From Chlorobiaceae bacterium (GTDB taxonomy: Bacteria; Bacteroidota; Chlorobiia; Chlorobiales; Chlorobiaceae): a stretch of 34,074 bases of DNA. Positions 4,363 to 33,985 of this stretch are shown here, one piece after another. How positions within the stretch are numbered: position 1 is the first letter of the stretch; the number at the start of each line of letters is the position of its first letter. The stretch covers positions 1 to 34,074 of the forward strand of contig JAAXWL010000020.1 of NCBI GenBank assembly GCA_013334975.1, given 5' to 3'. The notes under the pieces are model-generated. The model worked only from the letters and a program-made list of their open reading frames with translations, was not told the origin of the DNA and ran no database searches. The position numbers and the translations under genes are program-made.

Positions 4363-4398
4363 ATTTTAAGGGCGGTTTTCCCGAATTCCTTTTATTTT

Positions 4399-4514
4399 CA
4401 GCACTCAGCACTCAGCACTCAGCACTCAGCACTCAGCACTCAGCACTCAGCACTCAGCACTCAGCACTCAGCACTCAGCACTCAGCACTCAGCACTCAGC
4501 ACTTAGCACTCAGC
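4399..4514. repeat. (CAGCACT)n heptanucleotide array
   Basis: Fifteen perfect tandem CAGCACT units (4399-4503) are followed by one TAGCACT variant (4504-4510) and a partial CAGC. An open frame runs through it only because 21 bases of the array encode a repeating heptapeptide; I do not regard that as a gene. The low divergence compared with the other arrays suggests recent expansion by slippage. Confidence 0.98.
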
Positions 4515-4528
4515 CTCATCATTCCCTT

Positions 4529-7075: not shown

Positions 7076-7130
7076 AGAAGTGGACAAAGTGGACGAAAGA
7101 GCACTCTCTTGCCATTCTCTGTCCACTTCA
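7076..7130. repeat. Period-9 GTGGACxAA hairpin after pfkA
   Basis: AAGTGGAC occurs twice in tandem, 9 bases apart (7078-7085, 7087-7094), and is mirrored by GTCCACTT at 7121-7128, an 8-bp perfect stem. It starts 12 bases past the pfkA stop and may act as the pfkA transcript end. The unit is the same as at 9797-9866 and 20775-20834. Confidence 0.8.
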
Positions 7131-8514: not shown

Positions 8515-9786
8515 ATGACTTTTTCAGACCATCTTCGTTTCGCCTGGGTTCACCTGCGTGAAAGAAAGCGACAGACTGTTCTGACCGCGCTGGGTGTCGC
8601 GGTCGGATCGGCTATGATGGTCACGACGATCGCCGTGGCGCGGGGCTCGTCGCAGAATGTCTTTTCGAAGCTTATCGATACGGCGCCGCATATCACGATT
8701 GGCGCCGACAGGCTTATTGCGGAGGTTCCCGACAACCTCATTGGAATCATGCAGGGCCGTATCGCCTTTGTGAAAAAAAATGTGACGACCGACAGGAAAG
8801 TGGTGATCAGGAACTACAACCAGGTTGTTCGGACGCTCAGTTCTGTCAGGGAGGTCGAGGATATATCGCCTTATGTGACCAGCAAGCTGCTTGCTCGCAA
8901 CAAGAGCCGCTTTACCCCCTGTTTTGCCAAAGGTGTCGTTCCATCGCTTGAAGCTGGCATTGCCGGCCTTAAAAAAAATCTGCTCGAACCTGATGCCCTG
9001 TCTGAACTTGCATGGACGCCGAATGGTATCATTTTAGGCTCCATGCTTGCCGACAAGCTCAAGGCAGGGTACCGCGATAACGTCATCCTGGTGGACAAGG
9101 AAGGCCATGAGTACCCCGTTGTGGTTGTGGGACGGTTCAGGAGCGGGTTCAATGCGAAGGATGAGAAAGAGGGTTATGTCAATCTTTCGCTGGCCCAGCG
9201 CATGGAGGCCCTGTCATCGAGTACCGTGACTGGTATCGGACTGAGGATTTCGGATATAGACCAGGCCGACCTGATTGCGGCAAGGATCAGGAAACTGACA
9301 GGATACGATACCAAAAGCTGGAGCGAAAGCAACCGGAATGTGATCGATTTCTACAATCGTAATGGAGTGATCACCATGGTTCTGGTAAGTTTCGTCTTTG
9401 TTGTGGCTGGTCTTGGTGTCTCATCGGTCATGACGACGGTGGTGCTGCAGAAGATGAAGGATATTGCCATTCTGCGCTCTATGGGAGTGCAGCGAAAAAG
9501 CATCACGATCATTTTCATGCTTGAAGGAATGATTATGGGAAGCTTCGGAGTTCTTGCCGGCAGTCCGGTGGGGCATTTCTGCTGCACGCTTATCGGAGCT
9601 ATACGGTTCGCTCCGAGCAGTGCGGGGGTGATAAGCAGCGATCGTCTTCTGCTCGTGGAAACTTTGGATGCTCACCTGCTCGTCATCTTTTTCGGCATTC
9701 TGATCGCGGTGATCTCCTCTGTAGGCCCGGCAAGAAGAGCCACGAGCTATTTGCCGGTGCAAGTGCTGAGAGGTGAGGTGGGGTGA
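8515..9786 (+). CDS. FtsX/LolC/MacB-type ABC transporter permease
   Basis: This 423-residue inner-membrane protein has the classic layout of one N-terminal helix (about 21-42), a large periplasmic domain (about 43-284) and three C-terminal helices (about 286-311, 329-361 and 388-404). The MKDIAILRSMGVQRKSI coupling loop lies between the second and third helices, and the protein ends PVQVLRGEVG. Such permeases work with an ATPase in lipoprotein release, efflux or cell-wall signalling; LolC/LolE or DevC are the closest types I can suggest. No ATPase or membrane-fusion gene is adjacent, so the substrate is unknown. It is divergent from pfkA and convergent with ispF. Its 3' end forms part of the left arm of an inverted repeat. 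Confidence 0.9.
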   Translation: MTFSDHLRFAWVHLRERKRQTVLTALGVAVGSAMMVTTIAVARGSSQNVFSKLIDTAPHITIGADRLIAEVPDNLIGIMQGRIAFVKKNVTTDRKVVIRNYNQVVRTLSSVREVEDISPYVTSKLLARNKSRFTPCFAKGVVPSLEAGIAGLKKNLLEPDALSELAWTPNGIILGSMLADKLKAGYRDNVILVDKEGHEYPVVVVGRFRSGFNAKDEKEGYVNLSLAQRMEALSSSTVTGIGLRISDIDQADLIAARIRKLTGYDTKSWSESNRNVIDFYNRNGVITMVLVSFVFVVAGLGVSSVMTTVVLQKMKDIAILRSMGVQRKSITIIFMLEGMIMGSFGVLAGSPVGHFCCTLIGAIRFAPSSAGVISSDRLLLVETLDAHLLVIFFGILIAVISSVGPARRATSYLPVQVLRGEVG

Positions 9787-9898
9787 ATGCAAGATTGTGG
9801 ACGAAGTGGACTTTGCGGACGAAGAGGAAAACATATTCTTGCATTGGGGGCGTCCACTTCGTCCACTTTTTACATTCGTCCACCAGCCCACCTCTTCT
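9768..9898. repeat. Inverted pair of GTGGACGAA arrays between convergent genes
   Basis: GTGGACGAAGTGGAC (9797-9811) and GTCCACTTCGTCCAC (9852-9866) are perfect 15-bp reverse complements around a 40-base interior. The similarity extends outward imperfectly (gaatgcaaga against the mirrored gaatgtaaaa, then gaggtgggg against gaggtgggc). Each arm is the sense-oriented post-stop array of its own gene: the permease on the left and ispF on the right. A CTTTTT run follows on the plus strand, so it may also terminate transcription. Confidence 0.92.
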
Positions 9899-9900
9899 CT

Positions 9901-10368
9901 TCACTCGATCAAACACACGGCGTGGGCGCAGGCGCCTTCGGCGCGCCCAACGTATCCGAGCTTTTCATTGGTTGTTGCTTTCACCGATACGGCGTTCATT
10001 TCGAGTTCGAGGCAGCGAGCGATGTTGCGGCGCATGTCGTTGATGTAGGGGGCGATTTTCGGCTCTTCGAGCAGCAGCATGGCATCGACGTTGACCGGTT
10101 TGTACCCTTCACGCTCCAGAAGTTTTCTGACATGCTTCAACAGGATCATGCTGTCGATGTCCTTGTAGTCAGCGCTGGTGTTGGGGAAATGCAGGCCGAT
10201 ATCACCGAGGGCCGCCGCACCGAGCAGTGCGTCGCTGACGGCATGCAAGAGCACGTCGGCGTCGCTGTGACCATCGAGGCCTGCGTGGCCGGGAATTTCA
10301 ACGCCGCCGATGACCAGTGTTCGTCCTTCCGCGAAAGGATGGACATCAATACCTATTCCTATGCGCAT
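9901..10368 (-). CDS. ispF: 2-C-methyl-D-erythritol 2,4-cyclodiphosphate synthase
   Basis: IspF cyclises CDP-methylerythritol 2-phosphate to MEcPP with loss of CMP in the MEP isoprenoid pathway, which feeds carotenoids, quinones and chlorophyll tails. The 155-residue protein has the zinc ligands Asp8 and His10 (GIDVHPF) and His42 within [12 protein letters not shown] (32-43), plus the C-terminal [13 protein letters not shown] segment. The length is normal for this trimer. It lies 72 bases downstream of pyrD, but the pyrD terminator sits between them. It is convergent with the ABC permease. Confidence 0.97.
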
Positions 10369-19373: not shown

Positions 19374-20699
19374 ATGATGGACAACGATATCCTCAAACGG
19401 CTCGACCCTGAGGTTTTCGAGGCGATTGCCGGTGAAACGAAACGCCAGACTGAAACCCTCGAATTGATCGCCTCTGAGAACTTCACCAGCAAGGCGGTCA
19501 TGGAAGCGTGCGGATCGGTCATGACCAACAAATATGCCGAGGGCTACCCCGGCAAACGCTACTATGGTGGCTGCGAATATGTCGATGTGGCCGAAAATCT
19601 TGCCCGTGACCGTGCCAAAAAGCTTTTCGGTTGCGACTATGCAAACGTTCAGCCTCACTCCGGTTCCAGTGCCAACATGGCCGTGCTCTTTGCTGTGCTC
19701 AAGCCGGGCGACACGATTCTGGGCCTCGACCTCTCCCACGGCGGCCACCTGACCCACGGGAGTCCGGTCAACTTCTCCGGCCAGATGTTTGACGCCCACT
19801 CCTATGGTGTGGAGCGCGAAACCGGCATCATCGACATGAACAAGGTGGAGGAGAAGGCAATGGAGGTGCGTCCGAAACTCATCATTGCCGGCGCCAGCGC
19901 CTACTCTCAGGGTTTCGACCTGAAAGCCTTCAGAGAGATTGCCGACAAGGTCGGTGCGCTCCTCATGGCTGACGTCGCCCATCCCGCAGGACTCATGGCC
20001 GCAGGTGTACTGCCGAATCCGATGGAGCATTGCCACTTTGTGACCACGACCACCCACAAGACCCTTCGCGGTCCCCGTGGCGGCATGATCATGATGGGCA
20101 AGGACTTTGAGAATCCGATGGGGATTACCATCAAGACCAAGACTGGATCGCGCGTCAAAATGATGTCCGAGGTGCTCGACGCAGAGGTGATGCCGGGCAT
20201 CCAGGGCGGCCCCCTCATGCACATCATCGCCGGTAAGGCGGTGGCGTTCGGTGAGGCTCTGCTTCCGGAGTTCAAGGTGTATGCCCAACAGGTCAAGGAC
20301 AATGCCGCTGCGATGGCAGCCAGGTTCATCGCCCTTGACTACCACATCGTCAGCGGCGGAACCAAGAACCATCTCATGCTGCTTGATCTGCGCAACAAGA
20401 ACGTCACCGGCAAGGTTGCCGAAAATCTGTTGCACGAGGCAGGTATAACGGTCAACAAGAACATGGTGCCTTTCGACGACAAATCGCCCTTCGTCACCAG
20501 CGGTATCCGTGTCGGTACGCCGGCCATGACTACCCGGGGCATGAAGATCTCCGAGAGCGAAAAGGTGGCCGAATTCATCGACCGCGTCATCAGCGCAGCC
20601 AACGATGCCAACGTCTCCGAGGTCTGCAAGGCAGTCAGGGCAGAGGTCAAAGAGCTTTGTCTGGGCTTCCCCCTCAACGACTACGGATCGCTGGTGTAA
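19374..20699 (+). CDS. glyA: Serine hydroxymethyltransferase
   Basis: GlyA is a PLP enzyme interconverting serine and glycine with transfer of a one-carbon unit to tetrahydrofolate. The 441-residue protein shows LIASENF (31-37), [13 protein letters not shown] (54-66), the [10 protein letters not shown] segment and the PLP Lys229 in [20 protein letters not shown] lies just upstream of tandem ATGs at 19374 and 19377, and either could be used. It follows ribBA by 23 bases. A strong intrinsic terminator ends the operon, and a GTGGACGAA array follows directly. Confidence 0.97.
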
Positions 20700-20762: not shown

Positions 20763-20834
20763 GAGGTGGATTTTGTGGACGAAGAGAGTATTCGCGGTTT
20801 TTATGTCCATGGATTCCACAACGACTTCGTCCAC
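20763..20834. repeat. GTGGACGAAG inverted repeat after glyA
   Basis: The left part steps by 9 bases (gtggatttt, gtggacgaa). GTGGACGAAG (20775-20784) is mirrored exactly by CTTCGTCCAC (20825-20834) with a 40-base interior. It lies immediately past the glyA terminator. Confidence 0.85.
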
Positions 20835-32712: not shown

Positions 32713-33870
32713 ATGCACAGGATGATGAAAAAGCGTATAAATATAGGATTCATAGGAAGCGGTTGGGCTCAGGTCGCCCAGGCGCCAGCGTTTTCGCTTA
32801 TGGAAGAGGTCGATCTGGCTGCGGTTGCCAGCCCAACGGAAAGGAACCGCCAGAAGTTTATGGAGCGATTCGGTATCACCGAAGGATTTGCCGACTGGCG
32901 CGACATGCTGGAGCAGTGTGATCTCGATCTGGTGTGCGTGACGACCCCTCCCTGGTTGCATGAACCAATGGTGGGCGGAGTGCTTGAAAGTGGCCGCGGT
33001 GTGCTGTGCGAGAAGCCTTTCGCGCTGACTGTTGAAGAGGCAGAGCGCATGAACGCTCTGGCTTCCAGGTCGCCCGGGTTTGCCCTGATCGACCACCAGC
33101 TTCGTTTCCACCCATCGGTCAGGAGTATGAAGCAGATGATCGACAGCGGTGAGATCGGCAGAGTCTACGAAGTGCGTGCCGTGGTGAACCTCGCTTCGCG
33201 AAACCGCATTGATATGCCCTGGTCGTGGTGGAGCGATGCCGCCAGAGGCGGAGGGGCGCTTCGGGCAATCGGCTCTCACCTGATCGATCTGAACCGCTTT
33301 CTGGTAGGGGAGATCTCGGAGGTCTGCTGCAACCTTTCAACCTCGATTTCGCAACGCCCCGATTCTACAATGCCTGGCCGGTGTCTGCCGGTCACTTCAG
33401 ATGACAGCTTCGCCATGTTCATGAAGTTCGGTCCATCATCGATCGCCCTTGGAGCCTCCTCGCTCATGCATGTGACCACGGTCGGTTCCTACACCTGGTT
33501 TTCGCTTGAAGTGGTCGGCAGTCTGAAAACCATCAGGCTCGACGGCGCAGGTCGTCTCTGGGAGATTGCCAACAGCGAAGCCAAAGGTGGCCGGAGCCTC
33601 ATCGATGCACCCCGCTGGAAGCAGGTTGAGCCGATTCTGCCCTGGGACGAACTGGTGCTCCAGGCCAAGATCAAGCTCTCATCGCTTGCCGTGCACGGCA
33701 TCTTTGCAGTCGGCTTCGCTTTTCTGGCCCACCGGATCGTCAAAGCGCTCAAAAGCGGCGACCCGATCGTCCTGCAGGACGCCGCCAACTTCCGCGACGG
33801 CCTTTGCATCCAGAAAGTCATGCAAGCTGGTCTCGACTCCGACCGCGAGAAGCGGTGGGTGAAAGTTTAA
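32713..33870 (+). CDS. Gfo/Idh/MocA-family NAD(P)-dependent oxidoreductase
   Basis: This 385-residue enzyme has an N-terminal Rossmann fold ([12 protein letters not shown], 9-20), the family motif CEKPFA (Glu100-Lys101-Pro102) and the GSHLIDL stretch with the likely catalytic His/Asp. Family members oxidise sugars, inositol or biliverdin; the substrate cannot be read from sequence. Position after hemN is not enough to assign a tetrapyrrole role. Starts at 32713, 32722 and 32725 are all possible. The first abuts the hemN T-tract and no good Shine-Dalgarno is visible, so the N-terminus and promoter are uncertain. Confidence 0.9.
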
Positions 33871-33985
33871 TTGATAATGGATAGTTGACAGTTGATAATG
33901 CCGGGACTGCCCTGATCAGTCCGATCCGTCAGATAAAATAGATCAGTCCCATCCGTCCAATCCGTCTGATCAAAGATCCTTTAAC
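33871..33985. repeat. Post-stop arrays after the oxidoreductase gene (mixed, then period 9)
   Basis: TTGATAATGGATAGTTGACAGTTGATAATG follows the stop in two related units (33871-33900), containing the dispersed 13-mer AATGGATAGTTGA (33876-33888). Then 9-base units follow: gatcagtcc, gatccgtca, gataaaata, gatcagtcc, catccgtcc, aatccgtct, gatcaaaga. A small GGACTG/CAGTCC hairpin lies near the start of the second part. Confidence 0.85.

Follow-up and report, generated by a model that had tools for sequence, protein, structure and literature searches.

Directional hexamer arrays behind stop codons in Chlorobiaceae: candidate sites for a trans-acting factor

Introduction

Arrays of the direct-repeat heptamer TAACTGA occur in Beggiatoaceae, Cyanobacteria and Bacteroidetes, in up to 169 intergenic sets per genome and mostly in few copies, and have been suggested to bind a post-transcriptional regulator (MacGregor 2015, PMC4679880). 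The arrays described here, from green sulfur bacteria of the family Chlorobiaceae, are likewise short intergenic direct repeats with a fixed place relative to genes. Whereas the TAACTGA heptamers lie just upstream of start codons, the Chlorobiaceae units combine a hexamer with a variable triplet, follow stop codons in gene sense, and are spelled in lineage dialects.

Other known repeats resemble these arrays in part. The neisserial and Pasteurellaceae uptake sequences (DUS/USS) are also short exact words with lineage dialects and inverted pairs behind genes, but they are single 9–12-mers at high density, whereas the Chlorobiaceae repeats form sparse arrays in a 9-bp register, next to stop codons and in sense. 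The short tandemly repeated repetitive (STRR) units of Cyanobacteria are near-identical heptamers. The Chlorobiaceae arrays share with them a short period, an intergenic location and multiple copies, but differ in that each unit has six fixed and three free positions and that neighbouring spacers differ more than expected by chance. Enrichment at gene 3' ends is shared with the intergenic REP/BIME repeats, which go with RAYT (Y1-type) transposases; unlike these, the Chlorobiaceae arrays contain no conserved palindrome and most have a single arm. Bidirectional intrinsic terminators likewise place a hairpin between convergent genes, and at the locus studied here a T5 tract follows on one side; in contrast to such terminators, the array sequence is constant, spacer pairing is not conserved and U-tracts are uncommon. 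A search of the open-access literature (subscription journals lay outside its scope) returned no description of GTGGAC/GTCCAC repeats or of tandem repeats in green sulfur bacteria.

Results

Two arrays face each other between a permease gene and ispF

The window, by which we mean the whole 34,074-nucleotide stretch of Chlorobiaceae DNA analysed (contig JAAXWL010000020.1), contains an FtsX/MacB-type permease gene and ispF in convergent orientation (Table 1). Between them, GTGGACGAAGTGGAC at positions 9797–9811 of the plus strand has its exact complement at 9852–9866, with 40 nt between the arms. This perfect 15-bp inverted repeat had been recognized in a first-pass annotation, which also assigned to each convergent gene an array in its own sense. 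Both observations hold, and the palindrome is the outcome of the two arrays facing each other. Both arms contain the hexamer and one common spacer, but their spacers come in a different order. Both arrays are short and degenerate, with 2–3 exact units per side, and GTGGACGAA occurs seven times in the window against 0.33 expected.

Table 1. Features of the permease–ispF junction and two further array members in the window.
Feature	Position	Strand	Description	Basis
FtsX/MacB-type permease	8515..9786	+	left convergent gene; stop codon facing the junction at 9786	ORF; Pfam FtsX/MacB_PCD
ispF (2-C-methyl-D-erythritol 2,4-cyclodiphosphate synthase)	9901..10368	-	right convergent gene; stop codon facing the junction at 9901	Pfam YgbB, E 7e-66
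Companion word	9786..9794	+	AATGCAAGA; shares the last base of the permease stop codon	sequence
Permease-side array	9797..9823	+	GTGGAC-GAA-GTGGAC-TTT-GCGGAC-GAA; units at 9797, 9806, 9815	sequence, exact matches
Loop	9824..9851		separates the two arrays	sequence
Second companion word	9837-9845		TCTTGCATT, inside the loop	sequence
ispF-side array	9852..9883	-	in ispF sense GTGGAC-GAATGTAAAAA-GTGGAC-GAA-GTGGAC (then GCC); GTCCAC units at 9852, 9861, 9878	sequence
Tract past the plus-strand stem	9867..9876	+	TTTTTACATT; T5 tract; its minus strand gives AATGTAAAA, a variant companion word	sequence
Array member	7080..7123	-	behind a phosphofructokinase-family gene; in gene sense one GTGGAC, then GTCCAC-TTT-GTCCAC	
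Array member	20764..20834	+	GTGGATTTTGTGGACGAA ... TCCACAACGACTTCGTCCAC; downstream of the gene that ends at 20699 and of a canonical terminator-like hairpin (T8 tract)	

The words flanking the arrays had also been noted as mirrored. One of them, gaatgcaaga, belongs to a genuine companion word, AATG(T/C)AAGA, which recurs beside many arrays. The mirroring of the other, gaggtggg, is coincidental, since its plus-strand copy is coding and specifies the conserved C-terminus of the permease (GAG GTG GGG TGA). Loop words closely related to the TCTTGCATT loop recur at the same junction in three other genomes (G020, G015 and G008). Rfam covariance models run on the window gave no gathering-level match; the only hits at the junction were to plant miRNA models, below threshold.

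Many arrays follow a stop codon and share the sense of its gene

The statistics that follow are based on 337 kb of array-bearing stretches from the genome of the window (G000) and on 1.2 Mb from the complete genome of a relative, G020. The G000 stretches were picked for containing arrays, so unbiased rates come from G020 only. Arrays were defined by exact hexamers, and genes were predicted with a home-made codon-model gene finder, not a standard annotator. In the G000 stretches, neighbouring GTGGAC units are spaced by 9 bp in 72 close pairs and by 18 bp in 29, and other distances are rare. The pattern GTGGACNNNGTGGAC has 72 matches in this genome, compared with none for the reversed control pattern. 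Facing units have a consistent polarity: within 120 bp, GTGGAC..GTCCAC outnumbers GTCCAC..GTGGAC by 22 to 0 in G000 and by 34 to 1 in the G020 sample.

Of the 51 arrays in G020, 24 lie at convergent, 20 at tandem and 3 at divergent junctions, and 4 fall within predicted genes. Convergent junctions make up 15% of the intergenic bases, and the enrichment there is significant (p 1e-8). In 24 of the 51, the array begins no more than 12 bp from a stop codon and has the sense of that gene, as compared with one antisense case (p 1.5e-6; about 1.7 expected by random placement). Adjacency to the stop is looser in G000, with a median of about 29 bp, but shows the same tendency, and in G006, a genome with the ATGGAC spelling, the arrays are behind stop codons as well. 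Antisense positions in tandem junctions and sites between divergent genes together account for about one quarter of arrays.

Several other repeats were seen in the course of this analysis. Intergenic positions 4398–4518 of the window hold 17 copies of the 7-mer TCAGCAC, and arrays with periods of 7 and of 6/12 (GATACC/GATTTC) are common in the intergenic DNA of the same genome. At 33914–33972, behind the gene ending at 33870, a degenerate repeat (GATCAGTCC/GATCCGTC) represents a further family with a 9-bp period located at the 3' end of a gene. A second dispersed element, composed of two hairpins (AGGAGGGTTTTAACCCTCCT ... CCCCGGTCTTCAGACCGGGG), is present in intergenic regions of G020 and G013 (L163, L164). 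BLAST found 24 matches across 1.2 Mb of G020; a 400-kb sample of G013 gave 15 matches, of which 14 lie between convergent genes.

Spelling and number of arrays differ among related genomes

The convergence of the two genes is conserved across the Chlorobiaceae: the permease adjoins ispF in 33 of 35 ispF loci, the exceptions being L156 and a contig-end fragment (L172). The DNA between them is variable. Two-sided GTGGAC arrays are found in G000, G001, G008 and G020, reduced or one-sided ones in G009, G012 and G015, ATGGAC arrays in G006, G007, G013 and G018, and unrelated sequence in G002, G003, G011 and G016. In Chlorobium ferrooxidans and its relatives the two genes are separated by a short gap or almost none. 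Junctions L165, L167, L168 and L169 (C. tepidum-like species, G011) contain an imperfect palindrome of about 80–100 bp, TTTTCCGC...GCGGAAAA. We considered this palindrome (TTTTCC..GGAAAA) of the C. tepidum-like junction as a replacement for the array family and rejected it, as only one copy was found in 400 kb of G003.

Genome-wide counts show strongly skewed use of three dialects, GTGGAC, ATGGAC and A(A/G)GGAC. The ATGGAC dialect characterizes the same four genomes that carry it at the junction; the A(A/G)GGAC spelling occurs commonly in G005 and also in G019, where it is used alongside GTGGAC. In a tree of the permease and ispF proteins, on which G008, G010 and G019 were not placed, the GTGGAC-rich genomes form one clade with 100/100 support. 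ATGGAC is found in two lineages outside this clade and therefore looks older than GTGGAC. The different spelling in different lineages suggests that a component of the cell reads the array, although genome-wide dialects could also come from a copying or homogenising process.

Searching 297 genomes of the phylum placed nearly all matches within the Chlorobiaceae, the remainder coming mainly from one genome with an unrelated 54-bp repeat. Several related species have almost no arrays, including G003, which we take to be C. tepidum TLS, indicating that the arrays are dispensable. Sister species G011 and G012 have 5 and 44 GTGGAC pairs, respectively, the latter in an assembly with 9% contamination; this contrast is a recent loss or gain and is suited to finding a putative reader. 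Two protein families were compared with this distribution. The Y1_Tnp domain is present in G000 and other array-rich genomes and absent from G002 and G003, yet it is also found in the array-poor G004 and G011. The domain thus does not track array number, and mobility of the RAYT/REP kind appears less probable. The Rho RNA-binding domain is uninformative, as it was found in 20 of 21 genomes.

The hexamer is constrained and the spacer is free

The arrays might be dispersed short repeats without host function, generated by local duplication or copying, homogenised within each genome and tolerated in the 3' regions of genes, where they would disturb little else. We regard this as a realistic possibility, albeit a doubtful one. 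Convergent junctions are without promoters and tolerate insertions, and other repeats with periods of 7 and of 6/12 occupy the same intergenic regions. Numbers that range from almost none to 126 pairs among related species also fit repeats of this kind. Tolerance, however, does not predict the 24:1 sense bias beside stop codons.

The units themselves are also informative. Constraint was measured on middle units, which have exact hexamers at -9 and +9 and were not themselves selected. Identity is 95–100% at each hexamer position beside freely varying spacers, a combination that neutral repeats leave unexplained. They also leave unexplained why adjacent spacers differ more than chance: agreement is below that predicted by composition, and a permutation test gave 52 base matches between neighbours, compared with 80.3 (sd 6.8) expected. 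Such divergence is not the trace left by simple tandem duplication, and the near-identical slippage units of a short tandem repeat (SSR/STRR) are not the rule here. Some arrays in genomes of the ATG and A(A/G) types nevertheless contain slippage runs, as does G012, and the existence of pure slippage expansions (33 units in G013) counts in favour of neutral repeats. In that G013 case, at the permease–ispF junction (L158), one ATGGAC arm has expanded to 33 spacers (GGA/AGA).

Orthologous gene ends point the other way, as they often keep the hexamer and not the spacer. Among 14 array-bearing ends of G000 with an ortholog in the G020 sample, eight have an array and two a single unit, with different spacers; in G013, ATGGAC arrays are present at two of four comparable ends.

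Facing arms are independent of each other

The first-pass annotation explained the two arms as copies of one inserted element, or as one array that had inverted. Neither origin agrees with the spacers, which pair between arms no better than when shuffled among sites: 29 positions matched against 28.8 expected at 12 GTGGAC sites, and 46 against 46.0 at 19 ATGGAC sites. At these 12 and 19 sites, compensatory changes that keep the stem paired were thus not seen. Orthologous junctions, moreover, show the arms changing independently. GAA is a common spacer (24 of 154), and the 15-bp perfection in the window arises from two fixed hexamers plus this one matching spacer. The palindrome is thus two facing arrays with one spacer that happens to match.

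It had also been proposed that the paired arms form a bidirectional hairpin serving as an intrinsic terminator, and that this explains how 3' arrays become terminators. In favour of this view, the window site has a stable GC-rich 3' hairpin, arms of fixed polarity, and a fold far more stable than that of shuffled sequence on either strand (z -7.3 and -8.0). A T5 tract follows the stem, in the plus direction alone. Two-arm sites are also frequent at convergent junctions (19 of 39). As an account of the family, the terminator is nonetheless improbable. Beyond the chance-level spacer pairing, 50 of 82 testable arrays (~60%) have no exact GTCCAC partner arm, and a search for hidden degenerate partners, comparing duplex energy with dinucleotide-shuffled flanks, gave p < 0.05 in 4 of these 50, with no signal for the group. 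Only five of 21 two-arm sites in G020 have a T-rich tail, with 5 or more T among the 8 nt that follow the stem. Terminator-like hairpins are about equally common at convergent ends with arrays (9/32) and without (71/206), giving no clear depletion of canonical terminators where arrays are present. Some arrays lie past a canonical terminator and so are not the primary terminator there. Because spacers match at chance level, ~60% of arrays are one-armed and U-tracts are uncommon, we consider the directional array, rather than the hairpin, to be the element.

Discussion

Recognition sites that act outside transcription, either a DUS-like uptake watermark with dialects or nucleoid-binding sites, and that sit at 3' ends because they do least harm there, are a very improbable explanation: neisserial uptake sequences do have dialects (PMC3630211) and frequently occur as inverted pairs a short distance apart that function as terminators (PMC2397512), but they are spaced about 1.1–1.5 kb apart, whereas G020 has an array about every 23.5 kb, tandem units repeated every 9 bp with spacers that vary do not resemble a single 10–12-mer, the sense-oriented adjacency to stops is left unexplained, and C. 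tepidum has been treated as having no uptake-sequence bias (PMC1939737), though arrays are absent there anyway.

Based on the sequence comparisons above, our preferred but tentative reading is that the arrays are sites for a putative trans-acting factor at gene 3' ends, following the stop codon and oriented with the gene. A putative sequence-specific factor would read the fixed hexamer (GTGGAC in the clade of the window) every 9 bp across variable 3-bp spacers. Reading could take place in the nascent 3' transcript or in DNA, with GTGGACNNN as the candidate target in the GTG dialect and ATGGACNNN as its dialect counterpart. The factor may mark or secure the transcript end, through factor-assisted termination, processing or insulation. 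Facing arrays of convergent genes could in addition pair as a hairpin, which would be a secondary effect. A more specific form of this proposal is that a lineage-specific Chlorobiaceae factor recognizes hexamers with a GGAC core, spaced by 9 nt in 3' UTRs (or in their DNA), as a new kind of transcript-end signal, that factor and signal co-evolved through genome-wide changes of dialect (from ATGGAC to GTGGAC, and to A(A/G)GGAC), and that the system was lost in the C. tepidum-like clade. In this full form we think the proposal unlikely.

With six fixed and three free positions, sense orientation, placement behind stop codons and clade-wise spelling, the arrays look like a read signal and not like a structural hairpin. 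If they are not a read signal, the junction is a warning that a textbook-looking perfect palindrome can come from two independent one-sided arrays. If they are, the Chlorobiaceae would possess a lineage-specific 3'-end code with natural dialects, and the reader could be found by setting genomes of the GTG, ATG and A(A/G) types, and those lacking arrays, side by side.
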